This document shows, one piece after another, positions 9,356 through 40,380 of a stretch of DNA of 64,000 nt. The stretch covers positions 1,488,001-1,552,000 of the forward strand of contig NZ_FXWK01000001.1 of NCBI RefSeq assembly GCF_900177655.1. The letters are read 5' to 3'. Under the pieces are notes generated by a model. That model did not search any database, had not been told where the DNA came from, and saw only the letters and a list, made by a program, of their open reading frames with translations. How positions within the stretch are numbered: the first letter of the stretch is position 1; each line of letters opens with the position of its first letter. Source of the stretch: Devosia lucknowensis. GTDB lineage: Bacteria; Pseudomonadota; Alphaproteobacteria; Rhizobiales; Devosiaceae. The position numbers and the translations under genes are program-made.

Positions 9356-9368
9356 GGCAATAATTGCC
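9356..9368. promoter_or_regulatory. ftr-like palindrome GGCA-N5-TGCC (flgB/fliO region, site 1)
   Basis: GGCAATAATTGCC, symmetric about its central base, lies 29 bp upstream of the flgB start and 10 bp from a perfect CtrA box. It is one of seven such 13-mers confined to flagellar intergenic regions. The proposed role is binding of a FlbD-type activator/repressor. Confidence 0.55.
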
Positions 9369-9378
9369 GGGCAAATGG

Positions 9379-9393
9379 TTAACCATCCGTTAA
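9379..9393. promoter_or_regulatory. Perfect CtrA box between flgB and fliO
   Basis: TTAA-CCATCCG-TTAA exactly fits the full CtrA site TTAA-N7-TTAA. It lies 52 bp upstream of flgB and 157 bp upstream of fliO in the divergent gap, so it may serve one or both early flagellar operons. Confidence 0.65.
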
Positions 9394-9451
9394 CCAACGC
9401 CGCCATATCGCTAATCCAGCGATGCATTTTGAGAATTTCTGGGCAACACCG

Positions 9452-9464
9452 GGCAGGAATTGCC
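9452..9464. promoter_or_regulatory. ftr-like palindrome GGCA-N5-TGCC (flgB/fliO region, site 2)
   Basis: GGCAGGAATTGCC lies 85 bp upstream of the fliO GTG, inside a longer CCGGGCAGGAATTGCCGA context that is almost repeated at 17790-17807. Confidence 0.55.
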
Positions 9465-9549
9465 GATCTTTGATGGGCCTGCGGCTATTGCCCCGGCCGG
9501 AATCGCGCTATGTCCCAGCCTCGGCGGAATATACTTGGAGGCCTCGTCC

Positions 9550-10227
9550 GTGCAATTTCTCACCGGCCTGTTTGGCGGCAGCGGCAACACCATTCTTACA
9601 GTGGTCTTCGCACTGGGCATCGTCCTGGTGCTCATCGTGCTGGCCGTCTGGCTTCTGAAGTGGATCTCCAGTCTTTCGGGCAACGCCGTGCGCGGCCGCA
9701 ACAAGCGGCTGGCCGTCGTCGACACGCTGTCGCTGGACCAGAAGCGGCAACTGGTGATCATCCGGCGCGACGATGTCGAGCACCTGATCCTTGTCGGTGG
9801 CCCGCAGGACCTTGTCGTCGAAAGCGGCATCGAGGTCGAGGACGTCCCGGTAGCGACTGCCCCCTCCCGCCGCCCCCTTCCCACGATCGCCCGCCAGCGC
9901 CCGGCTGAACCACTGGCCACAGTACCGCCGGTTCCGGCCCCTCAGCCCCAGGCTCCAGTGAAAGCCCCCCCTCCCGAGGCGGCGCCGGGAACCCTTCTCG
10001 CCGAACTCCAGAAGTCCGGGCACCCTGGCGACCGCAAGGCCCGGGTCTCCCTCCGTCAGACTGGCCTGCTGCGTCCCGTGACCGAGAAAACCGCGACGCA
10101 ATCCGTGCAAAACCCCGATGCCGCGACCGGCCAGCGGGCCGACTCAGCTAAAGAGTTTGGCAACGACACGGCGAGCGAAGGCAACGCGGTTGAGCATCAC
10201 GACGGAGACCAGGCCAACCGGAACTGA
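9550..10227 (+). CDS. fliO: Flagellar biosynthesis protein FliO
   Basis: A 225-residue membrane protein that helps assemble the FliP ring of the export gate. One transmembrane helix near the N-terminus (about residues 12-35) is followed by a FliO domain with RLAVVDTLSLDQKRQLVIIRRDDVEHLILVGG, a clear family core. The C-terminal 110 residues are proline- and alanine-rich, without recognisable domains. The GTG at 9550 is chosen because TTGGAGG lies at 9535-9541 with 8-bp spacing; the longer in-frame ATG at 9460 would overlap an ftr-like site. The gene overlaps the fliP start. Confidence 0.88.
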   Translation: MQFLTGLFGGSGNTILTVVFALGIVLVLIVLAVWLLKWISSLSGNAVRGRNKRLAVVDTLSLDQKRQLVIIRRDDVEHLILVGGPQDLVVESGIEVEDVPVATAPSRRPLPTIARQRPAEPLATVPPVPAPQPQAPVKAPPPEAAPGTLLAELQKSGHPGDRKARVSLRQTGLLRPVTEKTATQSVQNPDAATGQRADSAKEFGNDTASEGNAVEHHDGDQANRN

Positions 10228-10981
10228 TCCGGCGCGACGCCCGCGCTGGCGTCGTTACCTGCCGCTCGTCACCGCCGCAGGGTTCCTGATCCTCTGGACC
10301 AGCGGCGCCTTCGCGCAGGATCTTTCGATCGATTTCGGTGATGACGCGACGCTGACCGAGCGCGCCGTCCAGCTCATCGGCCTGATCACACTGCTCTCGC
10401 TCGCGCCCTCCATCCTGGTGATGGTGACGAGCTTCACCCGCATCGTGGTCGTCCTGTCGCTGTTGCGCACGGCGATCGGCCTGCAGACTGCGCCCCCGAA
10501 CACAGTGATGGTGTCGCTGGCCCTGTTTCTGACAGCTTTCATCATGCAGCCGACGCTGCAGGCCAGTTACGACCAGGGTATCGCGCCGCTGATGGCTGGT
10601 CAGATCGAGTTCGCCGAAGCCTTTGATGCCAGCGCCGCACCGCTGCACGAATTCATGCGCGCCAACGTCCGCGACAAGGATCTCGAACTTTTCTTCGACC
10701 TGACGGAAGCCGAAGTACCGGCCGAACCCGAGGCCATTCCGCTGCAACTGCTGGTACCGGCCTTCATCATTTCCGAATTGCGGCGAGCCTTCGAAATCGG
10801 CTTCCTGCTGTTCCTGCCCTTCGTGGTCATCGATATGGTCGTGGCGTCCGTGCTCATGAGCATGGGCATGATGATGCTGCCGCCAGTGGTGATTTCCCTG
10901 CCCTTCAAGCTGATCTTCTTCGTGCTCGTGGACGGCTGGTACCTTGTGGCGGGCTCGCTTGTGCGAAGTTTCACGAGCTAG
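10190..10981 (+). CDS. fliP: Flagellar export apparatus protein FliP
   Basis: The core subunit of the FliP5-FliQ4-FliR1 export gate. A signal-type helix lies at the N-terminus (LPLVTAAGFLILWTSGAFAQD), followed by the conserved LAPSILVMVTSFTRIVVVLSLLRTAIGLQ and, near the end, FVVIDMVVASVLMSMGMMMLPPVVISLPFKLIFFVLVDGW. No good ATG exists at the 5' end. I propose TTG at 10190, with GAAGG at 10177-10181, which overlaps fliO by 38 bases; a start upstream at 10118 is also open. Its TAG stop shares the CTAG palindrome with the stop of the convergent gene. Confidence 0.93.
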   Translation: MSITTETRPTGTDPARRPRWRRYLPLVTAAGFLILWTSGAFAQDLSIDFGDDATLTERAVQLIGLITLLSLAPSILVMVTSFTRIVVVLSLLRTAIGLQTAPPNTVMVSLALFLTAFIMQPTLQASYDQGIAPLMAGQIEFAEAFDASAAPLHEFMRANVRDKDLELFFDLTEAEVPAEPEAIPLQLLVPAFIISELRRAFEIGFLLFLPFVVIDMVVASVLMSMGMMMLPPVVISLPFKLIFFVLVDGWYLVAGSLVRSFTS

Positions 10982-13900
10982 AGCGACGCGACACCATTGT
11001 TGGGCGTACTGGCAGTGAGCGGCGTCAACGCGCCCTCGCCCGCATAGGTCTCGCGATAGGACGAGAGGAATGCGCCGAGGCTGTCCACGGCTGCTACCTC
11101 AGCCGCCACCCGCTTGAACTCCAGGCTGGTGGTCTGGATCGGCCCGGTAACATAGTCGAACATCGGCCACTCCGGCGAAGCCACCATCTGCTCCCCGAAC
11201 TTGGCGCGAAGCCGGGACAGGCCGAAGTCGTCCCCGGCCAGAACATAGCCTACCGCGGCCTTGATCACGCTCATCCGCGCAGCCTGATTGAGCGGCTTGC
11301 CCTTGGGCTCGGCGGCATAGATCGCTTCGATCATCTCGCCGGCCTGGCTGTAGCGACGCGCCTTCCAGTTGGCGTCGATGCGCAGCAGTTCGACATCCTT
11401 GCCGTCCATTGTGCTGATCAGATCGAGCGCCAGTTGGTCGCGACCGCCATCGATCATCGCCCGGGCCTCGAGAATCCTGCGCTGGCGCTGCAGCGACTCT
11501 GGCAGGCCCGGTAATTGCGTGGCATTGAGCACGCGAATGGCGTCCTGCGGCTTGCGATCTGCGAGGTAGATCACTGCCAGGTCCGATGCGATCTGGGTTC
11601 GCGCAACGCCGCGAAGGCGGTTGTCCAGCTGGTACTGCAGAAGGTCCGCCGCCTGTGGCAGCAGATCCACCCGTACCAGGCGGCGCGCAAGGTTGCGGAT
11701 CATTTCGTCGCCGCGGGCGCCCGATGGGGTCAGGTGCTGGAAGTCGTAATAGATCGCCAGCGCTTCCACCGGGCCGATCGAGTCGGCCACACCGTTGAGG
11801 AAAAGGTCCGAGAACATCGCCTGAGCCTGGTCACGCAGGGCGTTGACCGATGGGCTTTCGGGATAGTTGGCAACGGCCGACTTCACCGTTTCGAACCCCA
11901 GGCGATAGTCGGAATTTCGGAAATAGAGCTGCGCCAGCAGCGTCTGCATCTCGGCCTCCAGCGCATCGCCCCGCCACAGCAGCGTCTCGGCGGCGAGCGT
12001 CTGCGTTCCCTTGGCGAGATCCAGCCGACCTTCCTTGTCCAGCAAGAGCAGAGTGCGATAGACCGCTTCGGCGCGCGTGGGCCGAACCTCGGAGGCGATG
12101 ACCTGGCCATAGGTATCCAGCGCCTCCTGATTGCGGCTCTCGGCTTCGTCGACGCGTCCGGAGAGCAACTGATGCAGCGAGGCATCCTCGACGTTCAGGC
12201 TGGCGAAGTCGACGTCGTCGAGCATCCGCTGCGCAAAGCCTGAATCGCCCGCCTCGACGGCAGCGCGTGCCGCCGCAAGCCGGAAGCGATTGCGTGCCCA
12301 TTCGGGGTAGCTCTCGGCAATCGTGCGGGCCTCGAGCGCGTCGAGCCGTGCGCCCTTGTAGTCCTGGGTGTCGGCACGGGCAACCGTACGCCAGAACAGA
12401 GCGTCCACGTCCTGATCCAGCGAAGGCGCATTGAGGATCGCGAGCGCATCGCGTGGCCGGCCGGCGAGGATGTCGGCGATGGACGCGGTGCTGCGAATCT
12501 CGCGCGTCAGGTCCGTGGCCTTCAATTCGTCCTGCAACACCTTCAGCACGCCGACGGCTTCCATCGCCAGACGATTGGCAGTGAGGTACTGCGCCAGCTT
12601 GAGCCGGGCAATGTCACGGTCCCTGCCCTCGCCCGCCGCGGCCGCAGCCTCCAGGTGATCGCGTTCCTCGACGAATTTCTTCGGGTCGCGCTGCTCAAGC
12701 GTCCCGAGGTCGAGATAACCGGCGCGGGCCTGTTCGCGGGCCTGCGCACCAACTGTGCGAAGCGTGTCGATCGCGGAGACGGTCAGCCCGCCATTGGTTG
12801 AAATCAGGGCATTGGGGCTGTCGATGCTGACATCGACATTGGGCGACTTCGGCTGCACGACAAGGCCGTGAACGCTCCTCAGTGCGGCGAAATCCACATA
12901 GTCCAGCGAACGCGTCAAACCCCGCGCCGGTGGATAGGCGGTCACGACCTTGAGCACGTCACCGACCAGAGGATCGCGGAAATCATGGACACGACCGGGC
13001 CGCGCAATGTCGGCGACCATTTCGAATGACCCTTCGACATCACGCCGGCGCGATAGCGACATCGGCTCGGTCGGGCTGAGCATCATGTCACCCAATGACA
13101 GCACCCAGGCCATGCCTTCCGAACCCAAGGTCGCCAACCGGTCCTGAGAAAGATCGAGGCGGACCACCTGCGTGTCGCCCGACGACAGGACCGCGAATTC
13201 GCTGGCAATCGGATCGAGCGCAGCCATGTCGGAAGGCGCCTCGATGCCACTCACGGTGTCGAACATCATCCAAACCGTGTCGCCGCGACGGAACACCGCT
13301 GCGGGCGTATCCTGCTCGAACGGGAAGACCAGACGAACGGTATTGCCGAGCACGTTGACAAACGGCGTGACGCTTTCAGCCGCTGTCGCCTGTAACGCCG
13401 CGATCCGGGGCGCCTCGGTCGCACCATGGGCGGCAGCGGCTTCCGCGGCATGCTGCTCAGCCTCGGCCGAGAGAGCCGCCGGCGTCAGCGTCGGCAGATC
13501 GAGGCCGGCCAGATCGATATCGAGCACATACTGCGATGGCGACGTGGCGTAGAACCGCGGGGTGACTCCCTCGGCGAAAATGAACGTCGCTGCCGCACCA
13601 TCCGCCGAAGCGCCGGACTGCGCCGACACGATTTCCGCCGGCATATCGGTCAGCAGGTTGCCCAGATCGATGGTGACTGGCCATTCGAAGGTCGCAGCGC
13701 CGATCTCGCCCTGCTGCACGAACTCGCCTTCGGTGGGCACGGTCCAGTCGAACTGGAGGCGCAGGAAAGTCGCGTTGCGGCCGATACGCACGTTGACCTT
13801 GGGGTCGAGTTCGGCGGCCATTCGGGCCTTGCGTTCGCGTTCGGCCTCGATGGCAGCGATCCGGGCGCGCTCGGCCAGTTCAGCCACGACCTCCTGCGGC

Positions 13901-14361
13901 AATGCAGGCGGCATGCCCTGCCATGTGGCGGGCATCAGATCGATGAAGAGCTTCTCGCCGGCTTCGATCCGGTTGAAATTGAACCCGCTCTTGAGCGCCA
14001 ACCGCAGGCCGCGGCGGTCGGGATCCACCCGCGCCATCGAGAGGTAGTTCGGCATGGTGACGGCAACGTCGGGCAAAAGGATATCGACGGGCTCCTCGAA
14101 TTCGATGGAGACCACGTTGTTGTCGACGCGAAACTGATAGGGCGGAAGCGTATCGAGCGATGGAAAACTCAGGATCAGACGCGCGTAGCCGTCTTCCTCG
14201 GTGCCGTAGAGCTGGCCTTGGTCCTGGGCAAACGCCGGCTGAATAACGGCCAGCATGCTGACCATCGCCATCGTCGCAAAGGCGACGGAGACCCGGCGCC
14301 AACCTGTCCTGCTTGCGGTCTTCACCGGCTTCTGCCCGCCCGACGCATGTATGACGCGCAT
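10978..14361 (-). CDS. Large secreted protein with AMIN-like beta modules and TPR-rich C-terminus
   Basis: A protein of about 1127 residues with an N-terminal signal peptide ending near AFAQD. The first 400 residues contain three similar beta-rich modules (around YARLILSFPSLDTLPPYQF, FLRLQFDWTVPTEGEF and TVRLVFPFEQDTPAAVF) resembling AMIN-type domains. From about residue 540 on it is helical with TPR-like repeats (AKGTQTLAAETLLWRGDALE, ALAIYYDFQHL, AVIYLADRKPQDAIRVLNA). I do not recognise a named family. It lies between fliP and the motE-like gene, in the same direction as the latter, so a periplasmic role in motility is plausible. The start is uncertain: ATG 14361 or a TTG ten codons upstream. 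Confidence 0.8.
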   Translation of the reverse strand: MRVIHASGGQKPVKTASRTGWRRVSVAFATMAMVSMLAVIQPAFAQDQGQLYGTEEDGYARLILSFPSLDTLPPYQFRVDNNVVSIEFEEPVDILLPDVAVTMPNYLSMARVDPDRRGLRLALKSGFNFNRIEAGEKLFIDLMPATWQGMPPALPQEVVAELAERARIAAIEAERERKARMAAELDPKVNVRIGRNATFLRLQFDWTVPTEGEFVQQGEIGAATFEWPVTIDLGNLLTDMPAEIVSAQSGASADGAAATFIFAEGVTPRFYATSPSQYVLDIDLAGLDLPTLTPAALSAEAEQHAAEAAAAHGATEAPRIAALQATAAESVTPFVNVLGNTVRLVFPFEQDTPAAVFRRGDTVWMMFDTVSGIEAPSDMAALDPIASEFAVLSSGDTQVVRLDLSQDRLATLGSEGMAWVLSLGDMMLSPTEPMSLSRRRDVEGSFEMVADIARPGRVHDFRDPLVGDVLKVVTAYPPARGLTRSLDYVDFAALRSVHGLVVQPKSPNVDVSIDSPNALISTNGGLTVSAIDTLRTVGAQAREQARAGYLDLGTLEQRDPKKFVEERDHLEAAAAAGEGRDRDIARLKLAQYLTANRLAMEAVGVLKVLQDELKATDLTREIRSTASIADILAGRPRDALAILNAPSLDQDVDALFWRTVARADTQDYKGARLDALEARTIAESYPEWARNRFRLAAARAAVEAGDSGFAQRMLDDVDFASLNVEDASLHQLLSGRVDEAESRNQEALDTYGQVIASEVRPTRAEAVYRTLLLLDKEGRLDLAKGTQTLAAETLLWRGDALEAEMQTLLAQLYFRNSDYRLGFETVKSAVANYPESPSVNALRDQAQAMFSDLFLNGVADSIGPVEALAIYYDFQHLTPSGARGDEMIRNLARRLVRVDLLPQAADLLQYQLDNRLRGVARTQIASDLAVIYLADRKPQDAIRVLNATQLPGLPESLQRQRRILEARAMIDGGRDQLALDLISTMDGKDVELLRIDANWKARRYSQAGEMIEAIYAAEPKGKPLNQAARMSVIKAAVGYVLAGDDFGLSRLRAKFGEQMVASPEWPMFDYVTGPIQTTSLEFKRVAAEVAAVDSLGAFLSSYRETYAGEGALTPLTASTPNNGVASL

Positions 14362-14474
14362 CTGGGCCGGAGAAGGCTCCGGTATCCTCAAAAAACGCGA
14401 GGGTTACAACACACGGGACACCGCGCCATTCTGGACGACCGCAGCCCCACTGTTCCAACCCTAGCGTCGGCTAC

Positions 14475-14489
14475 TTAACGCGCCCCTAA
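14475..14489. promoter_or_regulatory. Near-match CtrA box upstream of the large TPR gene
   Basis: TTAA-CGCGCCC-CTAA is one base from the full CtrA site. It lies in the short gap between the motE-like gene and the AMIN/TPR gene. Confidence 0.3.
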
Positions 14490-14508
14490 GGGCATGCGGT
14501 GCAATTAT

Positions 14509-17679: not shown

Positions 17680-17748
17680 ATCACGGCCCTACCAAACGCC
17701 TGCGATTCCGGACAAACCCGGCTTCCGGACCAGCTAAGGCGCAGTTGG

Positions 17749-17763
17749 TTAACGAAGTCTTAC
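17749..17763. promoter_or_regulatory. Near-match CtrA box upstream of fliL
   Basis: TTAA-CGAAGTC-TTAC is one base from the full CtrA site and lies 70 bp upstream of the fliL ATG, with two ftr-like palindromes just beyond it. Confidence 0.45.
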
Positions 17764-17778
17764 CAAAGTCACTAAAGC

Positions 17779-17791
17779 GGCAGTTTTTGCC
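17779..17791. promoter_or_regulatory. ftr-like palindrome GGCA-N5-TGCC (fliL/flgF region, site 1)
   Basis: GGCAGTTTTTGCC lies about 90 bp upstream of the flgF sigma-54 promoter and is in tandem with the next copy, 14 bp centre to centre. Confidence 0.6.
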
Positions 17792-17792
17792 G

Positions 17793-17805
17793 GGCAGCAA
17801 TTGCC
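17793..17805. promoter_or_regulatory. ftr-like palindrome GGCA-N5-TGCC (fliL/flgF region, site 2)
   Basis: GGCAGCAATTGCC sits inside the same CCGGGCA-N2-AATTGCCGA context as the site at 9452. It is about 77 bp upstream of the flgF sigma-54 promoter, a usual enhancer distance. Confidence 0.6.
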
Positions 17806-17881
17806 GATTGCAACGATAAGGTCTGTACGAGGTTGCCGACGCCGTTTCATTAAGTGATTGATTTTATTAAAATTGTTCCAT

Positions 17882-17897
17882 TGGCACGGTTTCTGCA
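17882..17897 (+). promoter_or_regulatory. Sigma-54 promoter of the flgF operon
   Basis: TGGCAC-GGTTT-CTGCA matches the -24/-12 consensus TGGCAC-N5-TTGCA at all but one base, with exact spacing. It lies 70 bp upstream of the flgF start. Confidence 0.75.
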
Positions 17898-23538: not shown

Positions 23539-23973
23539 ATGATCCGCAAGCTTCTCGTCACTGCCCTGACCGCCACCCTGATCGTCAGCGCTGCAGCACC
23601 TGCCATGGCCAACAGCCTCTACATCGAGCAGTATGGCTGGGGCAACGCCGTCGGCGGCGGCCAGTCCGGCTGGAACAACAAGTTCGGCACCTACCAAAAC
23701 GGCAAGTGGAACACTGCCGTTTCCAACCAGAATGGCGGCAACAACACCTCGGCCGTCGGCCAGCAGGGCAAGAACAACTACGGCGACGTCTACCAGAATG
23801 GCTGGAACAACCAGGGTGGTGTCGGGCAGTTCGGCCAGGACCATAACGCGATCCTGACCCAGGACGGCAATGGCAACGTCGCCGCCGGTGTTCAGGTCGG
23901 CAAGGGCTGCAACGCCAATATGGTGCAGCACGGTTCGGGCAATGTGAGTGCATTCGTCCAGGTTTGCCCGTAA
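23539..23973 (+). CDS. Curlin-repeat (CsgA/CsgB-like) amyloid subunit
   Basis: A 144-residue secreted protein with a signal peptide (residues 1-24, ending PAMAN). The mature part is built of about ten 11-residue units of the form Q-x-G-x-x-N, for example YQNGKWNTAVS, NQNGGNNTSAV and YQNGWNNQGGV, which is the curlin repeat pattern of functional amyloids. Two cysteines lie near the C-terminus (GKGCNAN and FVQVCP), unusual for curlin. The ATG follows AAAGGAGA. A CsgH-like gene lies 60 bases downstream and a second curlin-like gene further on. Whether it is the major or the nucleator subunit cannot be told. Confidence 0.85.
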   Translation: MIRKLLVTALTATLIVSAAAPAMANSLYIEQYGWGNAVGGGQSGWNNKFGTYQNGKWNTAVSNQNGGNNTSAVGQQGKNNYGDVYQNGWNNQGGVGQFGQDHNAILTQDGNGNVAAGVQVGKGCNANMVQHGSGNVSAFVQVCP

Positions 23974-24033
23974 CGGCACCCTGCCGGGCCGGCCTTTGGC
24001 CAGCCCGGTCGCCCGTGACCAGAGGAGGACATC

Positions 24034-24417
24034 ATGGTTCCATCGAGTTTCCGTATCGCCGCGCTGGCCCTCGGGGCCGTGGCGATTGGCGGCATTGCAG
24101 CGCAGGCCAATGGCGGCAGCAGTGCCGGCCTCGACTGCGGCATCAACAGTCAGACCCAGGGCGGCATGATTGCCATCGAGGCGGTGGTGAACAGCCCCGT
24201 TGCCCTTTCGGGCGAGTATCGGCTCTCGCTCAATAGCCACGGCAATGGCGGCTCGAGCAACATCAACCAGGGCGGCGCGTTCACCGCAGCGGCCGGTACG
24301 CCTCTGGCGCTCGGCAAGGTGATGGTCAATGCAGGCTCAGAAATCGATATCGACTTCACCATCACCCACGGCGGCAAGGAGTTCGACTGCTCCGCGCCCC
24401 TGACGACCCACACCTGA
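24034..24417 (+). CDS. csgH: CsgH-like curli protein
   Basis: A 127-residue secreted protein. A signal peptide ends near AAQANGG; the mature domain is beta-rich with two cysteines (LDCGINSQ and FDCSAPL) likely to form a disulfide. The pattern EAVVNSPVALSGEYRLSL ... SNINQGGAFTAAAG ... GSEIDIDFTITHGGKEFDC resembles the alphaproteobacterial CsgH, which keeps curlin from polymerising in the periplasm. GAGGA lies upstream of the ATG, and it lies between two curlin-repeat genes. A strong terminator follows at 24442. Confidence 0.75.
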   Translation: MVPSSFRIAALALGAVAIGGIAAQANGGSSAGLDCGINSQTQGGMIAIEAVVNSPVALSGEYRLSLNSHGNGGSSNINQGGAFTAAAGTPLALGKVMVNAGSEIDIDFTITHGGKEFDCSAPLTTHT

Positions 24418-24441
24418 CCTACAGCACATCACAACCACTGG

Positions 24442-24463
24442 CCCCGCTTCGGCGGGGTCTTTT
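24442..24463 (+). terminator. Rho-independent terminator after csgH
   Basis: CCCCGC-TTCG-GCGGGG followed by TCTTTTG; a short, strong UUCG-type hairpin. Confidence 0.8.
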
Positions 24464-24483
24464 GTTTGCTTTGGCCGTTTCGA

Positions 24484-24522
24484 TGAACGCCATCTGAATG
24501 GAGCGCTCCGAACCGGTTCAGG
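24484..24522. promoter_or_regulatory. Direct-repeat motif upstream of the second curlin gene
   Basis: TGAAC (24484) and TGAAT (24495) at an 11-bp period, then TTCAGG at 24517. Compared with 23430, the TTCAGG element is shifted by exactly 11 bp, one helical turn. Confidence 0.4.
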
Positions 24523-24596
24523 CCATGCGCTCTAGGGTCATCCCAAGCGCCGGGTAAGGCCGGCAAGGGAACACAAACACCTTCGGGAGAAATCAG

Positions 24597-25010
24597 ATGA
24601 CCACTCGCTTCACCAAGACGATCGCCGTCGCCCTCACCGCCAGCCTGATCGGCCTGGCCGCCAGCCCGGCCATGGCCGCCGGACAAATTTCCTTCGGCTT
24701 CGCACCGAGCGACCCGGATCAGGCCAAGGCACTGGGGGTGGGCCTGCAGATGTTCTCTCTGGTCAAGGGATTGTCCGGAACCGGAGCCGACGTCTACCAG
24801 AACGGCAACGGCAACTCGGCCGGCGGCAGCCAGAATGGATCGAACAACCACGGCCTGATCTGGCAGGAGGGCAATGGCCACAACGGCACCGTGCACCAGA
24901 ACGGAAACAACAACAGTTGCGGCCTGTTCCAGTTCGGCGAAGCCACCGACGCCCAGTGCCTTCAGAACGGCGACAACCAGTCCGGCATCACGACTGTCTT
25001 CGGCTTCTGA
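24597..25010 (+). CDS. Second curlin-repeat protein
   Basis: A 137-residue secreted protein with a signal peptide (ending PAMAAG), a non-repetitive N-terminal segment of about 40 residues, then six 11-residue Q-x-G units (YQNGNGNSAGG, SQNGSNNHGLI, WQEGNGHNGTV and so on). It has two cysteines in the repeats. It has fewer repeats than the protein at 23539 and may be the minor or nucleating subunit. Its own promoter-like motif and a terminator at 25034 make it a separate transcript from csgH. Confidence 0.8.
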   Translation: MTTRFTKTIAVALTASLIGLAASPAMAAGQISFGFAPSDPDQAKALGVGLQMFSLVKGLSGTGADVYQNGNGNSAGGSQNGSNNHGLIWQEGNGHNGTVHQNGNNNSCGLFQFGEATDAQCLQNGDNQSGITTVFGF

Positions 25011-26220: not shown

Positions 26221-26640
26221 TCAAAACTGGGGAAAGCGCCCCAACTTGGCGAGTTCGACCCGCACCCTGAGCTCGATATCGTCGATCACGGCGTCGAGGC
26301 CAGGCTCCACCCGCTCGCGCAACTGCCCCAGCTGCAGCACCATCGTGTCGAGACGCTCCGCCGAGACTTTCCCCACGAGAAGGTCGGCCTTCATGGCCTC
26401 GAGCAGATCGAGCAGGCCGCGGCCGCGCTTGACCGACTTGCGGCGGCTCTCTGTGAAATCGCCCACTGCCTGCAAAGCGAGGATGGCGTCGAGCCCGGCC
26501 GTCGGCGCGACAGGCGCGGAGGTATTGACGCGTGCGGCACTGGTCTCACCCGCTGGCACGAAGGCGGGTCCGCTGCCGGCCTTGCCGGTGGCGCTCCGCC
26601 CAGCAACACCGCTGGTTCGATTTGTGGCGTCGATACGCAC
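26221..26640 (-). CDS. fliX: Flagellar assembly regulator FliX
   Basis: A 139-residue protein resembling Caulobacter FliX: a Ser/Ala/Gly-rich N-terminus, then GLDAILALQAVGDFTESRRKSVKRGRGLLDLLEAMKADLLVGK and the ending VIDDIELRVRVELAKLG. FliX couples basal-body assembly to the activity of FlbD at sigma-54 promoters. The start is GTG with an AGG eight bases before it. It diverges from flgI, as in Caulobacter. The gap contains a perfect CtrA box and two ftr-like sites. Confidence 0.85.
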   Translation of the reverse strand: MRIDATNRTSGVAGRSATGKAGSGPAFVPAGETSAARVNTSAPVAPTAGLDAILALQAVGDFTESRRKSVKRGRGLLDLLEAMKADLLVGKVSAERLDTMVLQLGQLRERVEPGLDAVIDDIELRVRVELAKLGRFPQF

Positions 26641-26670: not shown

Positions 26671-26683
26671 GGCAAAATCTGCC
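26671..26683. promoter_or_regulatory. ftr-like palindrome GGCA-N5-TGCC (fliX/flgI region, site 1)
   Basis: GGCAAAATCTGCC lies 31 bp upstream of fliX and about 140 bp upstream of the flgI sigma-54 promoter. Confidence 0.55.
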
Positions 26684-26713: not shown

Positions 26714-26726
26714 GGCAAGAATTGCA
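26714..26726. promoter_or_regulatory. ftr-like palindrome with one mismatch (fliX/flgI region, site 2)
   Basis: GGCAAGAATTGCA departs from GGCA-N5-TGCC only at the last base; it lies about 87 bp upstream of the flgI sigma-54 promoter. Confidence 0.5.
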
Positions 26727-26812
26727 GGGCGCAACCTGCGACTGTCGACAGTCGGTCGGGACCGCTGCAAATACCACAATTAAATCAATCAACTAATCCG
26801 GATCATGCGAAT

Positions 26813-26828
26813 TGGCACGGTTCTGGCA
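26813..26828 (+). promoter_or_regulatory. Sigma-54 promoter of the flgI operon
   Basis: TGGCAC-GGTTC-TGGCA matches the -24/-12 consensus with exact spacing and both invariant dinucleotides, GG and GC. It is nearly identical to the flgF promoter at 17882. Confidence 0.75.
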
Positions 26829-28817: not shown

Positions 28818-28913
28818 CGTCTGCCATTTTATTCAAATGCGCAACGCAGCGGTTACGCGAGCATAAGAGGCAGGACTTACCGTTTCATCGAATAGGTGCA
28901 TTCGGGGAACGTC

Positions 28914-29261: not shown

Positions 29262-29302
29262 GTTAACGCATTCCTAGACCTCCCAAGACGGCTCCAAACT
29301 TC

Positions 29303-29328
29303 AAAGCCCCGGATTTCCGGGGCTTTTT
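29303..29328 (+). terminator. Rho-independent terminator before the flagellin genes
   Basis: AAAGCCCCGG-ATTT-CCGGGGCTTTTT, a strong hairpin with a T run. Confidence 0.9.
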
Positions 29329-29382
29329 CGTTTTCACGGTGCCGCCGGAGCAGCGCCTTTTGCCCAAAGTTTCGGCATCCAT

Positions 29383-29397
29383 TTAACGCTTCTTTAT
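29383..29397. promoter_or_regulatory. Near-match CtrA box upstream of flagellin 1
   Basis: TTAA-CGCTTCT-TTAT is one base from the full CtrA site, 80 bp upstream of the flagellin ATG. The second flagellin has a perfect box at a similar distance. Confidence 0.4.
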
Positions 29398-29477
29398 GTC
29401 CTGCCGGATGAGGATCGCCGCAGCCTCAGGAAGAGGCGTGTTTGTATGCGTAATCCTAGAAAAGGACTTGAAGCCAA

Positions 29478-31376
29478 ATGGCCGATATTTCGCTCTCCAA
29501 AGCCGTCCGCTCGAACCTGCTGTCCCTCAAGGGCACTGCCGACATGATGGCCTCCACCCAGAACCGCCTCGCCACTGGTAACAAGGTGAACTCGGCTCTG
29601 GACAATCCCTCCAGCTGGTTCACTGCAAAGGGCCTCACCAATCGCGCAAGCGATTTGGGATCCCTGCTCGACTCCATGGCCAATGGCGTCAAGACCCTCC
29701 AGGCTGCGGACAATGGCCTCTCGGCCATGACCAAGACCCTGGAATCGATGCAGTCGACCCTGCGTCAGGCCCGTCAGGACAAGTCCTTCCAGACCGCTTC
29801 CTACTCGATCGGTGCAAACGCAACCGGCAACCTGACCTTCGCCGGTGGCGCTCTCGACGAAGCATCGTCGATCTCGCTGACCAAGGCACAGCCGGCCACC
29901 GTTACTTCTGGTTCCGACTTTGCACTTGCCGGTTCCGTAGGTGGTGCTGACTTCACCTTCGGCACGGGCCTGAACTTCGACGAAGCCACTGACAAGATGG
30001 CCTTCGACGTTACCATTGATGGCAAGACCGAAACGGTTGAAATCACCAAGGCCATTGCCGATGCCGCAACTACCGGCAACGACGGCAATATCAGCACCGC
30101 GGACGAAATGGTCGACGCGATGAAGGCAGCCTTCGTTGCCGCCGGCCATGAAGCCGCAAGCTTCAAGATCACGAACACCGCCGGCGTCATCAAGGTCGAG
30201 TCCGCCTCAAGCGGTTCCAACTCCGCCGTGACCCTGGGTACTGCCACCTACACCAACGGCGGCGCCAACGACCTTGTCGCTGCCGGTTCTGGCTGGGGCT
30301 CGGTCGCTGCCGACAATACTGCTGCTGCTACCGCCACGATCACCATTGGCGACGGCACCAACACCACCGCCAACATCGTCCTGAATGGTGATGACCACAA
30401 CACGCCCGAAAAGGCTGCCAAGGCCATCAACGACGCCATCAAGACGCTCAATGACTCGCTGGCTGGCACCGATGACGATCTGCCGTTCACCGCATCGGTG
30501 AAGGACGGTCGCCTTGTGATCACTGGTGCTGCAGATGGTACGGGCGCAAACCCCGTCATCGGTGGCGGCGGTGCTGATGCAGTGTTCGGTACAGCTGCCC
30601 AGCGCGACACGAAGCTGGCTTCCACCACCGGCGGTGCAACCAAGACTGTTGACGAACTGGTCACCGAGATCAACTCGGCTACTCTCGCCAACGGCGATGT
30701 CAATCCGCTCAAGGGTGCCATCCGCGCCTCGAACGACAACGGCAAGCTGCGCATCGAAAACCAGTCCACCTCTGACCTGTCGGTCAACGGCGTGAACTCT
30801 CTCGGTGTGGCAGATGGCGTTACCGTTGCAGACACGCTGATCAAGAAGATCGACGGCAACTCGGTTCGCTCGGGCCTGGCCGATCAGTTCAACGAACTGC
30901 GCGACCAGCTCGACAAGCTCGCCGACGACGCTTCGTTCAACGGTATCAACCTGCTGCGCGGCGACAAGCTGGCCATCACCTTCAACGAAACTGGCACGTC
31001 GTCCATCGACATCCAGACCAAGAATGGCGAAACCATCAACTCGTCCAACCTCGGCGTGTCCACCACGCTGAACAAGGCCGATCTCGATAGCGACGCCAAG
31101 ATCGACGAAGAACTGGGCAAGCTCAAGTCTGCACTGAACGAAGTCCGTTCGCAGGCCTCGTCCTTCGGTTCCAATCTCTCCATCGTCGAAAATCGCCAGA
31201 GCTTCACCAAGGCGATGATCAACACCCTGGAAGATGGCGCCGGCGACCTGACCCTGGCCGACATGAACACGGAAGCTGCGAACCTGCTGGCTCTGCAGAC
31301 CCGTCAGTCCCTGTCGCAGAACTCGCTCTCGCTGGCGAGCCAGGCCGATCAGTCGATTCTCCAGCTCATCCGTTAA
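29478..31376 (+). CDS. Flagellin (copy 1, intact, 632 aa)
   Basis: The filament subunit. The N-terminal D0/D1 helices (ADISLSKAVRSNLLSLKGTADMMASTQNRLATG) and C-terminal D1/D0 helices (ADMNTEAANLLALQTRQSLSQNSLSLASQADQSILQL) are typical of alphaproteobacterial flagellins. Between them lies an insert of about 400 residues rich in Thr, Ala, Gly and Asp that would form D2/D3 surface domains; 632 residues is well above the 270-400 of most alphaproteobacterial flagellins. A second copy with high DNA similarity follows directly. The terminator at 31402 separates the two. Confidence 0.95.
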   Translation: MADISLSKAVRSNLLSLKGTADMMASTQNRLATGNKVNSALDNPSSWFTAKGLTNRASDLGSLLDSMANGVKTLQAADNGLSAMTKTLESMQSTLRQARQDKSFQTASYSIGANATGNLTFAGGALDEASSISLTKAQPATVTSGSDFALAGSVGGADFTFGTGLNFDEATDKMAFDVTIDGKTETVEITKAIADAATTGNDGNISTADEMVDAMKAAFVAAGHEAASFKITNTAGVIKVESASSGSNSAVTLGTATYTNGGANDLVAAGSGWGSVAADNTAAATATITIGDGTNTTANIVLNGDDHNTPEKAAKAINDAIKTLNDSLAGTDDDLPFTASVKDGRLVITGAADGTGANPVIGGGGADAVFGTAAQRDTKLASTTGGATKTVDELVTEINSATLANGDVNPLKGAIRASNDNGKLRIENQSTSDLSVNGVNSLGVADGVTVADTLIKKIDGNSVRSGLADQFNELRDQLDKLADDASFNGINLLRGDKLAITFNETGTSSIDIQTKNGETINSSNLGVSTTLNKADLDSDAKIDEELGKLKSALNEVRSQASSFGSNLSIVENRQSFTKAMINTLEDGAGDLTLADMNTEAANLLALQTRQSLSQNSLSLASQADQSILQLIR

Positions 31377-31401
31377 TCGAATCGAGCTCGAAACCAATAC
31401 G

Positions 31402-31436
31402 AAGGGGCGGGTCGCAAGACCCGCCCCTTCCCTTTT
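31402..31436 (+). terminator. Rho-independent terminator after flagellin 1
   Basis: GGGGCGGGTC-GCAA-GACCCGCCCC followed by TTCCCTTTT; a 10-bp GC stem. Confidence 0.9.
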
Positions 31437-31488
31437 AGGCCCGCCAAACCGCTGAAAAATATGGTTTATGCGCCGTCAATCCGCATGG

Positions 31489-31503
31489 TTAACACCCCTT
31501 TAA
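31489..31503. promoter_or_regulatory. Perfect CtrA box upstream of flagellin 2
   Basis: TTAA-CACCCCT-TTAA exactly fits the full CtrA site, 62 bp upstream of the ATG at 31566. Confidence 0.55.
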
Positions 31504-31565
31504 GAAACTGCGGTTAACTCTTTTGCCAAGGGGCCAGAAACGGCCTGAGGCAAGGATTGCATTAG

Positions 31566-33466: not shown

Positions 33467-33489
33467 ATCGGTTACCAACCGACGTTCGG

Positions 33490-33521
33490 AAGGCGGGCCC
33501 AAAGCCCGCCTTCGTTGTTTT
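33490..33521 (+). terminator. Rho-independent terminator after flagellin 2
   Basis: AAGGCGGGC-CCAAA-GCCCGCCTT followed by CGTTGTTTTT. Confidence 0.9.
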
Positions 33522-33579
33522 TGCCGCAATCTCGGGCTAGACAGATTCGGTCAATCCACACATCGGGGCACCGACGATA

Positions 33580-34330: not shown

Positions 34331-34347
34331 GCCGTTGGGTCGTGACC

Positions 34348-34378
34348 AAAAAAGCCCCGCAGCGATGCGGGGCTTTTT
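34348..34378 (+). terminator. Rho-independent terminator after flaF
   Basis: AAAAAAGCCCCGC-AGCGAT-GCGGGGCTTTTT. A second GC hairpin at about 34473-34492 (CCCTCGGG with CCCGAGGG) lies beyond the flgL stop and may serve the minus strand. Confidence 0.9.
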
Positions 34379-34531
34379 CTTTTGGGGTTGAGATTATGCC
34401 CGCTAACGACCCGGTTCCGTCCTGGGGCTGACCCGAGGACTAGTTTCCACCGGCATATTATACGTGTCTGGGTGGCCCTCGGGTCGGGCCCGAGGGCGGA
34501 GCGCTGTGGGAAAGCCCCCTGCCCAACGGGC

Positions 34532-36505: not shown

Positions 36506-36518
36506 GATGTCCTACTCC

Positions 36519-38369
36519 TCAAGTCGACGCGAACAGTGTGTCGAGCAGTTCCTTGACCACCGACACGATGCGGGCGTTAGCCGCATACGCACTCTGCAAC
36601 TCGGTCAGCCGGGCCATTTCCTCGTCGGTGTTGACCCCGTATTCGGTTTCCATCTGCGTGGAGATAGTATCGAGCGTCAGTTGCCGGTTGTCCCGGGTCG
36701 TCAGCGCGGCGCTGATCGAAGTGCCCTGGAAGTTCAGCACCTGCTCGATCATCTGCTCGAGCGAACCGTTCAGCTGGTGACGGCCGACATTCTCCGCCGG
36801 TGTGCCGCCCGAAACGAACCGCATCGTCTTGAGCTGGTTGAGCAGATATTCGGGCCGCTCGGCATCGCCAAGCGTCTGCCCCACATCCGTCTGCACCAGC
36901 AGCCGATTGTCCGAGAGCACAGCCGGATTGACCTTGATGCGGGCAGCGAGGCCGACCTTTTGCGGCGGATCGGTATCGAGGTTGTTGGTGAAGGCCGCAT
37001 CGCCGTCGGTGAACAGCGCCATGGCGGATTCGCCAGCCAGAAGGCCGGTCGCGGTCGTGCGGGTGTTGAGCCCCGTCACATCGCGCACGCCAGTGGTGCC
37101 GTCATCCAGCATGGTCAGCGAGCTTGCGCTGAGCGTCACGTCGAAGCCAGGAAACTCCTTGTCGAGCAGCGCCTGCGCGTCGCCCAGGGCCGCCGGATCG
37201 CCGAGCGCCGCAAAGTTGATCGGAATGACGCGCTGTCCGCTGGCATCGGTATAGGGCTCGCCGTGGTCGCTATTGACGATGCGCGCGCGCTTTTCGGCGC
37301 CGTCGACCGTATAGGTCACCTGGATGTCGTTGCCTGGCTTGAGGCTTGACAGGTTTGCGCTGAGACCCGTCGCCCCTGCCCCATCCGACGCCGCCGTGCC
37401 GGGCGTATTGATAGTGGAAAAGGCCGAAGCCAGGCCCGCTGCCAGTTCGTCGAGCTGGTTCTGCGCTTCAACGAGTGTCTTGTCGCGGAGCTGTATGAGC
37501 CCGGCCAGTTCACCGCCCTGCAACACGCCCTGGCGGACGAGATCGATGCTGAGACCGGAAGGCGTTGTCAGCGTGAGCGTACCGACTTTGTTGCGGTCGG
37601 GGTCGAAGCTCGCGGTCGCCGTCGGCGACAGCGAGCCGACTGTTTCGAACTTGAACGTCGACACACCGTTGTCGAGCAAGCCGACGCCGGACCGCGTCAT
37701 CAGCGCAACCGTACCATCGGCGCGATAGTCGGCGCGTACGTCAATGATTTCGGCAACCGAGCCCACGAGGCGATCGCGCTGGTCGTAGAGCGCGGCGCGG
37801 GCCGTGTCGGTCATGCCGAGGTCGAGCATGCGGTTGTTCACCTCGTTGAGCGAGATGAGCATGGCATTGACTTCGTTCACATCGTTCGTGATGCGGGTCT
37901 CGGTCTCTTGGCGCAGCTCCTGCACCACGCCGGACAATTCGTTGAGACGGCGGGCCATGGCCTGCGCCTCGGATACCGCATTGGCGCGCGTCGAATAGTC
38001 GTCCGGGCTCGTCGCCAGCGCCGAGAGCGAATTCTTGAAGCTGCCGAACATGGTGTCCAGCGAGCCGGCAGAGCCGGGTTTGCCCAGAAATCCCTGGAGC
38101 TTGTTGAGGTAGTTCGCCTGGACGTTGGACGAAGCGGTGTCCGACACCTGACGGTTGTAATAGGTCTGGAGGCTAAGACTGAACGCGCGATCCACACCCG
38201 CGGTACGGGCGTAGGTGCTGTTCATCGAATTGTGGTCGACGATGTTCAGCGACTGCCGATGATAGCCGGGCGTGCCCGCATTGGCCACGTTGCGCGACAG
38301 GATCGTGATGGAATCCTGGGTGACCCGGAGACCTGAAACCGCATTCGACAGCGAAGAAACTAGACCCAT
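36519..38369 (-). CDS. flgK: Hook-filament junction protein FlgK (HAP1)
   Basis: A 616-residue hook-associated protein. The N-terminal motif GLRVTQDSITILSRNVANAGTPGYHRQSL and the C-terminal helix VNTDEEMARLTELQSAYAANARIVSVVKELLDTLFA are typical of FlgK. The middle includes the long coiled region EAQAMARRLNELSGVVQELRQETETRI. It lies 13 bases upstream of flgL and 60 bases after flgE. Confidence 0.96.
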   Translation of the reverse strand: MGLVSSLSNAVSGLRVTQDSITILSRNVANAGTPGYHRQSLNIVDHNSMNSTYARTAGVDRAFSLSLQTYYNRQVSDTASSNVQANYLNKLQGFLGKPGSAGSLDTMFGSFKNSLSALATSPDDYSTRANAVSEAQAMARRLNELSGVVQELRQETETRITNDVNEVNAMLISLNEVNNRMLDLGMTDTARAALYDQRDRLVGSVAEIIDVRADYRADGTVALMTRSGVGLLDNGVSTFKFETVGSLSPTATASFDPDRNKVGTLTLTTPSGLSIDLVRQGVLQGGELAGLIQLRDKTLVEAQNQLDELAAGLASAFSTINTPGTAASDGAGATGLSANLSSLKPGNDIQVTYTVDGAEKRARIVNSDHGEPYTDASGQRVIPINFAALGDPAALGDAQALLDKEFPGFDVTLSASSLTMLDDGTTGVRDVTGLNTRTTATGLLAGESAMALFTDGDAAFTNNLDTDPPQKVGLAARIKVNPAVLSDNRLLVQTDVGQTLGDAERPEYLLNQLKTMRFVSGGTPAENVGRHQLNGSLEQMIEQVLNFQGTSISAALTTRDNRQLTLDTISTQMETEYGVNTDEEMARLTELQSAYAANARIVSVVKELLDTLFAST

Positions 38370-38390
38370 TTTGGCCCTCTAGCTCAAGGA

Positions 38391-38412
38391 CGGCCCGGGG
38401 TGTCCCGGGCCG
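38391..38412. other. Perfect GC hairpin between flgE and flgK
   Basis: CGGCCCGGG-GTGT-CCCGGGCCG, a 9-bp stem with a tetraloop and no T run. It may attenuate transcription or shield the flgE mRNA 3' end, making hook protein more abundant than FlgK and FlgL. This role is inferred. Confidence 0.5.
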
Positions 38413-38429
38413 GCAGTTCGTGCGGGTCC

Positions 38430-40214
38430 TTAACGGACCATGTTGAGCGCTTCCTGCAGCATCTCGTCGGCGGTCGACACGATGCGGGTACCGGCCGAAT
38501 AGGCCTGCTGGGTGATGATCAGCTTGGTGAATTCGTCCGAGATATCGGTGTTGGACGCTTCGAGCGCGCCACCGAGAATGCCGGAACCGGAGAGATCAAG
38601 GATCGGCTCACCGGACTCGGACGTGGCTTCGTAGACACCGCCGTCGAGACGCTTCAACGAGTTGATGCCGTTGAACTGCGCCGTCACGACCTGCGCCATT
38701 TCGATGCGCTCGCCGTTCGAATAGGTGGCGACGACGCGACCGCTGTCAGTGATGGCGACGGACAGGAATTCACCGGCGCCATAGCCGTTCTGGTTGAGCT
38801 TGGACACGCTGACCGTGCCGTTGACGTCGGCGAACTGCGAGACGCCGCCCGTGCCATGCTTGATCTTGACGTTCTGGATTTCGACGCCGTTGATCCGGAC
38901 GCTGGAGAGCACCGGTTCGATATTGACGGTCGGATCGAGCGAGCCGTCGGAACCGAAGCTGTAGACCTGGCCAGTGCTGGTCCAGGCCGGCGATCCGCCA
39001 ACGGCGGCGCTGTCGGAGTGGTAGAACAACTGCCATTTGTCGGTACCGCCCGACGCTTCGCTGTCGATCTTGGCCCAGCGCATCACCATGTGCACCGGCG
39101 CGCCATTCTCGGCATAGACAGTCACGGCGCCACCTTCGATGGAGCGCGCAATGAAGCTGTTTTCCTGGTCCTTGGAAATGGTCGTCGCGGTAGGCAGAAC
39201 GCGCGGCGTGACGATTGGCGTGCCGAGGCCCAGGGCTGTGCTCAGCGCTGGCGTCACGTTCTTGAACTCGGCGGTGGCGTGGTAGTCCGTACCCAGCGTC
39301 ACCTGGAAAGCGCCGCCATCGAGGCCGACCGTGGCAGTCGCCGCAGCCTTGCCGCCCTTGTCGCGCAGCGCCGTCTGCATGTCCGCCAGCACCTGGCCGA
39401 CGGTCCGGCCACCGATTTCGATCGGCTGCGCCGTACCAGCATAGCCCGTGGCGGAGGTGACGAATTCGAATTCGACGTCAACACCCTTGACCGAAATGGT
39501 CATCTTCTGGCCGTTCACGAACAGGTCCGGATCGGGAGCAACCGAGACGGCCGGCTGGCCAGCCGTCAGCGTGGTGACTGTGCCGGTCACCTTGTGCGGC
39601 GAGGATGGGCTGGTGGTGAAGTTTTCGACGCCGAGTAGCTCGCTATTGTAGTTGTTGGCGTTGTAGTTCGCGGTCTTCGGCAGCTGCGGCAGGTTGGCCT
39701 GATACTCAACCTGCGCGGTTGCATTGGCCTCGAGGAAGGCATTGGAAAGACGGATCACGCCGGGCACGGAACCCGAGATATTGCCGGTCTTGCGGTCGAT
39801 ATCGAGGCCCTTGAGATAGTATCCGGCGCCATTGACGAGCAGACCATCCTTGTCGATCTCGAAGTCGCCGCGACGCGTATAGTAGTTCGAACCGGCGAAA
39901 ACCGAGTTGCCGTCCGACTGGCCAACCTTGGGCTCGACGACGAAGAAGCCGTTGGTGTTGAGAGCGATATAGGTCTCGTTGGAGCTCGTCTGGATATCGC
40001 CCTGGATGTTGTTGGTGCCGCGCGACTGCGCCAGCACCGCACCAGGCACCTGCGACTTCAGCGGCGCGTCCGGGATCAGGTCCACGAAGCTCGTTTCGAT
40101 CCGCTTGTAACCGGTGGTCTGCGAGTTCGCGATATTGCCAGAAATGTTTTCAAGCGCGTGGCTCTGCGCCCGCAGGCCAGTCACCGCACTGGAAAGAGCT
40201 CCATAGATACCCAT
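38430..40214 (-). CDS. flgE: Flagellar hook protein FlgE
   Basis: A 594-residue hook subunit. The N-terminus GIYGALSSAVTGLRAQSHALENISGNIANSQTTGYKRIETSFVDL and the C-terminus SNTDISDEFTKLIITQQAYSAGTRIVSTADEMLQEALNMVR are diagnostic. The open frame extends upstream to 40556, but the ATG at 40212-40214 has GGAG seven bases before it and begins the conserved domain. A consensus sigma-54 promoter lies 52-67 bp upstream. It is the first gene of flgE-flgK-flgL. Confidence 0.96.
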   Translation of the reverse strand: MGIYGALSSAVTGLRAQSHALENISGNIANSQTTGYKRIETSFVDLIPDAPLKSQVPGAVLAQSRGTNNIQGDIQTSSNETYIALNTNGFFVVEPKVGQSDGNSVFAGSNYYTRRGDFEIDKDGLLVNGAGYYLKGLDIDRKTGNISGSVPGVIRLSNAFLEANATAQVEYQANLPQLPKTANYNANNYNSELLGVENFTTSPSSPHKVTGTVTTLTAGQPAVSVAPDPDLFVNGQKMTISVKGVDVEFEFVTSATGYAGTAQPIEIGGRTVGQVLADMQTALRDKGGKAAATATVGLDGGAFQVTLGTDYHATAEFKNVTPALSTALGLGTPIVTPRVLPTATTISKDQENSFIARSIEGGAVTVYAENGAPVHMVMRWAKIDSEASGGTDKWQLFYHSDSAAVGGSPAWTSTGQVYSFGSDGSLDPTVNIEPVLSSVRINGVEIQNVKIKHGTGGVSQFADVNGTVSVSKLNQNGYGAGEFLSVAITDSGRVVATYSNGERIEMAQVVTAQFNGINSLKRLDGGVYEATSESGEPILDLSGSGILGGALEASNTDISDEFTKLIITQQAYSAGTRIVSTADEMLQEALNMVR

Positions 40215-40265
40215 CTGTAACTCCGTAATGCCCGTTGCGCCGACGGGCGCGTTCGAACAAGACAA

Positions 40266-40281
40266 TGCAAACGCAGTGCCA
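40266..40281 (-). promoter_or_regulatory. Sigma-54 promoter of the flgE operon
   Basis: On the minus strand TGGCAC-TGCGT-TTGCA is a perfect -24/-12 element with exact 5-base spacing, about 52 bp upstream of the flgE ATG. Confidence 0.82.
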
Positions 40282-40367
40282 AACCGCGGAGCCATTGAAA
40301 CTAAATACATTTTCGTTCCCGACGAGCCAAAATGCGGCGACAAGGCGGCAATTGAGTCCGGGCCTAC

Positions 40368-40380
40368 GGCAACTTTTGCC
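40368..40380. promoter_or_regulatory. ftr-like palindrome GGCA-N5-TGCC (flgE region)
   Basis: GGCAACTTTTGCC, extended to CGGCAA-CTT-TTGCCG, lies 87 bp upstream of the flgE sigma-54 promoter and 78 bp upstream of the divergent P-loop gene. Confidence 0.6.

Follow-up and report, generated by a model that had tools for sequence, protein, structure and literature searches.

Palindromes in the flagellar control gaps of Devosia lucknowensis as probable operators of a Caulobacter-type FlbD/FliX switch

In Caulobacter crescentus, as described in excerpts of PMC3930126, FlbD represses fliF through ftr4 and activates the middle flagellar genes, and the six flagellins are RpoN dependent. Integration host factor (IHF) and FliX belong to the same flagellar circuit (PMC3096577, in part), and passages of PMC12421884 cite Fumeaux et al. 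for a map of the promoters that FlbD binds. The divergent flgB and fliO genes of this organism are 144 bp apart and share a CtrA site (passages of PMC6180460, citing Boyd and Gober 2001), and FlbD is absent from the Rhodobacteraceae shown in those passages. The fla2 genes of Rhodobacter sphaeroides are likewise under CtrA control. Here we describe a 64-kb stretch of the Devosia lucknowensis genome (contig NZ_FXWK01000001.1, positions 1,488,001 to 1,552,000; hereafter the window), in which a 13-bp palindrome, GGCA-N5-TGCC, recurs between flagellar operons. From the comparisons below we conclude, with a probability of roughly nine in ten, that these palindromes serve as operators for the sigma-54 activator FlbD in a Caulobacter-type FlbD/FliX switch.

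The window contains eight exact copies of the palindrome, as against 2.38 ± 1.48 in 100 dinucleotide shuffles (largest count, 7), and flagellar control gaps hold six of the eight. The original prediction listed these six and a one-mismatch copy at 26714 as lying in intergenic gaps of flagellar operons, and all seven were found where it had placed them (Table 1). All seven are intergenic once the likely gene starts are used. The 9452 box touches a TTG start of the fliO frame, in which FliO homology begins only at residue 64, and the 40368 box lies inside an over-long flgE frame, in which homology begins at about residue 120; the 588-aa version of FlgE aligns from residue 1 in two relatives. Our gene calls, made by codon bias, had classed both the flgE box and the flgE sigma-54 site as coding, and were corrected by hand from this homology. 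When one mismatch was allowed, 52 matches were found in the window and 50.8 were expected, which is the level of chance; in DNA as rich in GC as this, one-mismatch scanning is therefore of no use for discovery, and the motif alone gives no support to 26714. That site is backed by a second box 41–43 bp from the first in three other Devosiaceae genomes (G005, G056 and G093).

In the whole genome, the exact palindrome occurs 166 times and its reversed pattern 96 times. The first 30 of the 166 sites in genome order, which served as the background, comprised 28 coding and 2 intergenic sites, so that an intergenic copy is unusual, whereas 6 of the 8 copies in the window were intergenic (Fisher p 0.00025; one of the six was counted so after the hand correction of the flgE frame). 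Within this sample, the comparison with non-flagellar intergenic DNA that the original prediction had proposed thus came out in its favor. A narrowed pattern had 20 matches in the genome, 10 of them intergenic and 8 of those 10 at flagellar promoters, although these 8 had themselves shaped the pattern.

For an evaluation by score, we trained a matrix on 93 sites that precede fliF in other genomes (D. lucknowensis was excluded; G005, of the same genus, was included). It ranked the seven sites 1st to 7th in the 64 kb, with scores from 23.8 down to 12.3 bits. In ten simulated windows the best score averaged 11.9 bits (maximum, 16.3) and the seventh-best averaged 4.5. For the four sites below that maximum, score is only part of the support, the rest being their number, location and conservation. 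Two exact copies, at 12259 and 13910, were dropped, as they lie outside the 40 best matrix positions and inside a 1137-aa frame of the flagellar island (10978–14391, minus strand); the frame itself had no match in the Pfam and NCBIfam scans. A matrix match at 48534 (12.2 bits) was also rejected, being inside a called gene and near the mean best chance score, and a weak one (7.7 bits) was seen at 28869.

The palindrome proved to accompany FlbD in relatives. Among the best 80 of at least 581 named FlbD loci, 73 gave a fliF start, 72 of them with at least 250 bp upstream. The exact palindrome preceded fliF in 55 of these 72 loci, and the remaining 17 all had a GGT- or GGA- one-mismatch form; spacers of 3, 4, 6 and 7 nucleotides gave 3, 1, 0 and 0 loci, respectively, the reversed pattern 0, ACGG-N5-CCGT 1 and shuffles 0.64. 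We also drew 121 genomes evenly from the order, some of which may be shared with the named loci. At a threshold of 590 bits set in this analysis, 72 of the 121 had an FlbD orthologue, and 86 had FliF. We searched the 500 bp upstream of fliF in 70 FlbD-bearing genomes and, for comparison, upstream of 18 fliF genes without an FlbD partner, of which 16 came from FlbD-less genomes and 2 were second fliF copies in genomes that do encode FlbD. The exact motif was present in 37 of the 70 and before none of the 18. The form GGHAA-N3-YTGCC was found in 67/70 and 0/18, a looser one-mismatch form in 67/70 and 1/18, and control patterns in 0–2 of 70 and 0–1 of 18. Since the loose patterns, like the matrix, were shaped on fliF data, the value of 67/70 is partly fitted, whereas 37/70 versus 0/18 is not. 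FlbD and FliX themselves co-occurred: both were present in 71 of the 121 genomes, FlbD alone in 1, FliX alone in 2 (assemblies 67% and 86% complete) and neither in 47.

We then examined the gaps seen in the window in 30 FlbD-bearing genomes, mostly of different families. A site was present in the fliX/flgI gap of 29/30 genomes (shuffles, 12/300), in the fliL/flgF gap of 29/30 (18/300; the single miss was a locus without flgF) and in the flgE region of 27/29 usable genomes (6/290). At fliP, flgB was the neighbor in 15 loci, and 14 of these had a box. Tandem pairs 14 bp apart, as in the window before flgF, occurred in 8 of 29 fliL/flgF regions, three of the eight being Devosiaceae. The 26671 box has counterparts in all three of the Devosiaceae genomes named above; for the 9452 box only G056 has one, which is weak, whereas G005 and G093 have none.

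The genome encodes the protein expected to bind these sites. The original prediction had made an flbD gene its touchstone, and one is present between fliN and flhA, 0.8 Mb from the window (C1:2312019-2313383), matching the NCBIfam equivalog NF050807 with 829 bits (cut-off, 750). The cluster runs fliF, fliG, fliH, fliN, flbD and flhA (locus L136). Pfam confirmed fliF; for naming the other structural genes we relied on position and on inspection of the sequences. This FlbD retains the GAFTGA loop and a Fis-type helix-turn-helix (HTH_8, 55.4 bits); its receiver appears degenerate (26.1 bits against a Pfam cut-off of 30.2), lacking the acidic pair and the lysine in the alignment, as in Caulobacter-labelled orthologues. 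Its nearest relative among the best 80 named loci is that of Devosia ureilytica, 97% identical, consistent with the Hyphomicrobiales-like genome that had been guessed. The sigma-54 promoters and the GAFTGA activator imply that rpoN is present. FliX is encoded in the window, as had been read from it, with a clear Pfam match (Table 1); five NCBIfam FliX models also matched the protein, all below cut-off (best, 91.5 versus 153).

Spacing relative to CtrA-like boxes, defined as TTAA-N7-TTAA with at most one mismatch, was largely uniform before fliF. The FlbD box was centered exactly 24 bp gene-proximal of such a box in 50 of 70 genomes, representing 22 of 31 families, and the distance was 22–26 bp in 64 of the 70; in 500 permuted pairings, the largest count at any one spacing was 7. 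The fliF gene of D. lucknowensis has two FlbD boxes, at -127 (17.9 bits) and at -64 (GGTAATTTTTGCC, 24.0 bits), and the latter is at 24 bp. At flgB, the spacing was 23–25 bp in 11 of 15 loci, and the box in the window is at 24. Before fliF in four loci with Caulobacter or Caulobacteraceae labels (L071, L105, L109 and L119), GGTAA-WTC-CTGCC lies 24 bp past TTAA-N7-TTTA. The full CtrA motifs of Caulobacter have their 5′ base near -35, with examples at -39 (excerpts of PMC4287350), which would place the 13-mer over about -14 to +2. The FlbD box at fliF and flgB would thus overlie the predicted core promoter and block polymerase. That window sites adjoin CtrA boxes or near-matches, as originally proposed, held for 9356, 17779, 26671 and 26714 (7–15 bp between) and failed for 9452, which has no CtrA box closer than 58 bp even with two mismatches.

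A second spacing rule emerged at the sigma-54 promoters. The three best sigma-54 matches in the window are those of flgF, flgE and flgI, each with an FlbD box upstream at a gap of 76–129 bp, in line with the layout first described; this arrangement recurs at fliK-flgD, which lies outside the window, with a 10.3-bit box 111.5 bp (measured by hand) from the sigma-54 site. Across the 30 genomes, 85 of 89 regions had both sites (29/30 for flgI, 29/29 for flgF and 27/30 for flgE), and 82 remained after three outside 60–180 bp were dropped. Their distances ranged from 65.5 to 167.5 bp, with 76 of the 82 within 77–125 bp, and grouped by eye near 78, 90, 100, 111 and 122 bp. Phasing near 11 bp gave R 0.53, compared with a null maximum of 0.38 in 5000 sets in which the distances were jittered and relatedness was ignored; without the three other Devosiaceae genomes (73 regions), R was again 0.53 and the null maximum 0.41. 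IHF-like sites, named after WATCAANNNNTTR, which we take to be the IHF consensus, were counted where they differed from it by no more than one base. One lay between box and sigma-54 site in 17/27, 22/28 and 18/27 regions (about 3 expected in each); exact matches were present in 4, 5 and 3 (0.1–0.25 expected). Those of flgF and flgE often start 30–31 bp before the sigma-54 site.

These observations suggest the following sequence of events, which we propose from sequence comparison. CtrA would first turn on the class II genes fliF, flgB, fliO, fliL and fliX, while FliX presumably holds FlbD under control. With the basal body assembled, FlbD would become competent. At a box centered 24 bp downstream of the CtrA box it would cover the -10/start region and shut class II, most clearly at fliF and flgB. 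At boxes lying mostly 78–124 bp upstream of a sigma-54 promoter (90.5–143.5 bp in D. lucknowensis), it would contact the sigma-54 polymerase from a preferred face of the helix, often across an IHF-like bend site. The class III operons of flgF, flgI, flgE and fliK-flgD would then start. A stricter version, to which we give even odds, is a fixed promoter grammar in which distance alone decides: a box 24 bp past the CtrA box means off, and a box placed an integral number of helical turns before the sigma-54 site, mostly at 78–124 bp, means on. In the fliX/flgI and fliL/flgF gaps two divergent promoters of opposite class would share a single box, and binding there would exchange early for middle genes in one event. 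Such a grammar would be old, being shared by the FlbD-bearing families of this order and the Caulobacter-labelled genomes.

Several observations weigh against assigning the palindromes to FlbD or against parts of this mechanism. On the CtrA side, the boxes before fliF are mostly TTAA-N7-TTTA; when a perfect box is required, just 2 pairs remain at 24 bp and another 2 at 23 bp. The 23–25 bp spacing was found in 0 of 28 loci at fliX, where the commonest box is 20 bp on the other side of the CtrA box, and in 1 of 29 at fliL, where it is 29 bp on the other side; at fliO the 24-bp spacing was seen in 0 of only 3 testable loci. As the usual fliX/flgI and fliL/flgF site lies upstream of the CtrA box when seen from fliX or fliL, repression is less clear there than at fliF and flgB. 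The region before fliP had a site in only 19 of 29 loci (shuffles, 13/290). On the sigma-54 side, the phase of flgF is shifted by about 2 bp from that of flgI and flgE, and the flgE region of D. lucknowensis has no IHF-like match. Upstream of the two flagellin genes, which start at 29478 and 31523, we found neither an FlbD box nor a sigma-54 match scoring 20 or more (29262–29477 and 31377–31522), apart from one poor GG-N10-GC at 29337. In the samples, the FlbD-less genomes were compared at fliF only, and their fliF genes form a diverged lineage (29–36% identical to the query), so that flagellar type is confounded with the presence of FlbD; furthermore, the sampled genomes are related, and the counts are not independent events.

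A rival explanation is a different binding protein, another sigma-54 activator or other factor of the same flagellar lineage that was inherited together with FlbD. A PF00158 profile search of the genome gave nine matches, seven of them strong, and any factor confined to the lineage would show the same co-occurrence. We nevertheless consider this explanation unlikely. FlbD is the one PF00158 protein encoded in the fliF-fliN-flhA cluster, while the six others appear, by context and sequence inspection only, to be NtrC, NtrX, two DctD-like proteins and two further regulators. The phased layout points to a sigma-54 activator, FlbD is the protein reported to act on fliF and the middle genes through ftr sites in Caulobacter (PMC3930126, in excerpts), and the four loci with Caulobacter or Caulobacteraceae labels likewise carry a box of this kind before fliF, again at 24 bp.

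Two further explanations deny that the palindromes are operators at all, and both seem to us highly improbable. If they were chance matches, or reflected a sequence constraint in flagellar gaps, one would expect one-mismatch matches at chance level, as observed, and only three of the seven sites beat the best score of the ten simulated windows, 16.3 bits, which weighs against our conclusion too. Such an origin does not account for sequence and spacing kept over many families or for the strict spacer controls, and the comparative counts make it very unlikely. The boxes could instead be degenerate sigma-54 promoters (GGCA...TTGC), whose -24 and -12 elements the half-sites resemble. The box, however, is palindromic and its spacing differs by 2 bp from that of a sigma-54 promoter, and a separate, better promoter of that type is present in each of the flgF, flgI and flgE gaps. 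Taken together, the sites, their spacing, their conservation and their co-occurrence with FlbD and FliX are established, and they favor FlbD as the binding protein; binding, timing, repression, activation and the parts played by CtrA, FliX and IHF are inferred. The FlbD-FliX circuit with an ftr-like layout that had been hypothesized is thereby supported on the grounds of gene content, conservation and spacing.

Several features are shared with C. crescentus: the two have in common an FlbD equivalog with GAFTGA and an apparently degenerate receiver, FliX, CtrA boxes at class II and sigma-54 sites at class III promoters, a site before fliF, IHF-like sites, and a divergent flgB/fliO gap with a CtrA site. 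In D. lucknowensis the CtrA box at fliX has an FlbD box on either side, and two boxes spaced by 14 bp precede flgF. Its flagellins, with no FlbD or sigma-54 site, appear to be outside the FlbD regulon, unlike those of Caulobacter, and class IV control probably differs. Unlike the Rhodobacteraceae mentioned above, which lack FlbD, D. lucknowensis has FlbD boxes beside the CtrA box.

In NtrC-type systems, a palindromic enhancer lies some 100 bp before the sigma-54 promoter and in helical phase with it, and an IHF site between the two bends the DNA. The flagellar class III regions share the palindromic box at about 100 bp, its phasing and the intervening IHF-like site; they differ in that the same protein probably also represses CtrA-driven promoters. 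Our results support the presence of an already known circuit in a genus new to it, with spacing rules that are apparently order-wide. They extend the FlbD/ftr circuit from Caulobacter to a Devosia genome and, through the comparisons, to families throughout the order that carry FlbD. The site matrix and spacing rules could serve to predict the class of a flagellar promoter in genomes yet to be studied, and the system lends itself to clean tests of repression and activation by the same protein. Among the matches listed we recognized no paper on FlbD sites in Devosia or on the 24-bp spacing, which does not show that either is unpublished.

Table 1. Predicted regulatory sites and fliX in the window (window coordinates; FlbD box scores and ranks are from the matrix)
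Feature	Position	Strand or setting	Remarks
FlbD box GGCAATAATTGCC	9356..9368	centre 24 bp flgB-proximal of CtrA box	23.8 bits, rank 1
CtrA box TTAA-N7-TTAA	9379..9393	between flgB and fliO	
FlbD box GGCAGGAATTGCC	9452..9464	fliO side, no CtrA box near	17.2 bits, rank 3
CtrA-like box TTAA-N7-TTAC	17749..17763	fliL side	
FlbD box GGCAGTTTTTGCC	17779..17791	first of pair 14 bp apart	15.9 bits, rank 4
FlbD box GGCAGCAATTGCC	17793..17805	second of pair	13.4 bits, rank 6
IHF-like site	17851..17863	-	exact match to WATCAANNNNTTR
Sigma-54 promoter TGGCACGGTTTCTGCA of flgF	17882..17897	+	best sigma-54 match in window; boxes centred 104.5 and 90.5 bp upstream
fliX	26221..26640	-	Pfam FliX 122 bits, cut-off 25
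FlbD box GGCAAAATCTGCC	26671..26683	fliX side of CtrA box	18.8 bits, rank 2
CtrA box TTAA-N7-TTAA	26692..26706	fliX side	
FlbD box GGCAAGAATTGCA, one mismatch	26714..26726	flgI side	12.3 bits, rank 7
IHF-like site, one mismatch	26783..26795	+	
Sigma-54 promoter TGGCACGGTTCTGGCA of flgI	26813..26828	+	boxes centred 143.5 and 100.5 bp upstream
Sigma-54 promoter TGGCACTGCGTTTGCA of flgE	40266..40281	-	
FlbD box GGCAACTTTTGCC	40368..40380	centre 100.5 bp upstream of flgE sigma-54 promoter	14.7 bits, rank 5

Two candidate targets outside the window were evaluated in the same way. FlbD control of ctrA was rejected: the divergent ctrA/fliI gap contains GGCAGGTTTTGCC (C1:2327180; L132/L376), which scores only 7.5 bits, and a site of at least 9 bits was present in this gap in 3 of 29 genomes as against 12 of 290 shuffles, so that it is not conserved. 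The fliI gene was the divergent neighbor of ctrA in 27 of the 29 sampled loci. Beside mazG (L377:722-1069; C1:1090721-1091068), boxes at L377:1038 (11.5 bits) and 1057 (10.6 bits) lie 77.5 and 96.5 bp (measured by hand) upstream of a perfect-looking sigma-54 site, which reads into a 69-aa EF-hand-like frame (Pfam EF-hand, 20.5 bits; cut-off, 25.4). This layout was found in none of the 8 relatives with mazG among 16 stretches chosen by guessed synteny, one of the 8 having a lone 10.7-bit site, and the 69-aa protein is encoded in no other locus examined; the boxes are possibly a lineage-specific FlbD target.

As for gene content, the Pfam scan identified fliR, fliQ, fliE, flgC, a rod gene at the flgB position, fliO and fliP, followed by a DUF6468 gene, fliM, fliL, flgF, flgG, flgA, flgH, fliX, flgI and a rod-binding protein gene, and finally the two flagellin genes, flbT, flaF, flgK and flgE. 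The naming of flgB rests also on position, as it scored 20.2 with the Pfam rod model (cut-off, 20.7), and a flgL-like gene was named from an NCBIfam match below cut-off. A second FlgE-like hook protein of 960 aa is encoded outside the flagellar cluster (L375:1565-4447; C1:122064-124946, minus strand) and is 86% identical to the FlgE of the window over the first 194 residues; neither an FlbD box nor a sigma-54 match was seen in the 7-kb stretch around its gene. A 288-aa frame (40459–41325, plus strand) is divergent from flgE and shares its control gap; it had no match in the Pfam and NCBIfam scans. Curlin repeat proteins and CsgH are encoded within the flagellar island, at 23539–25010 on the plus strand.

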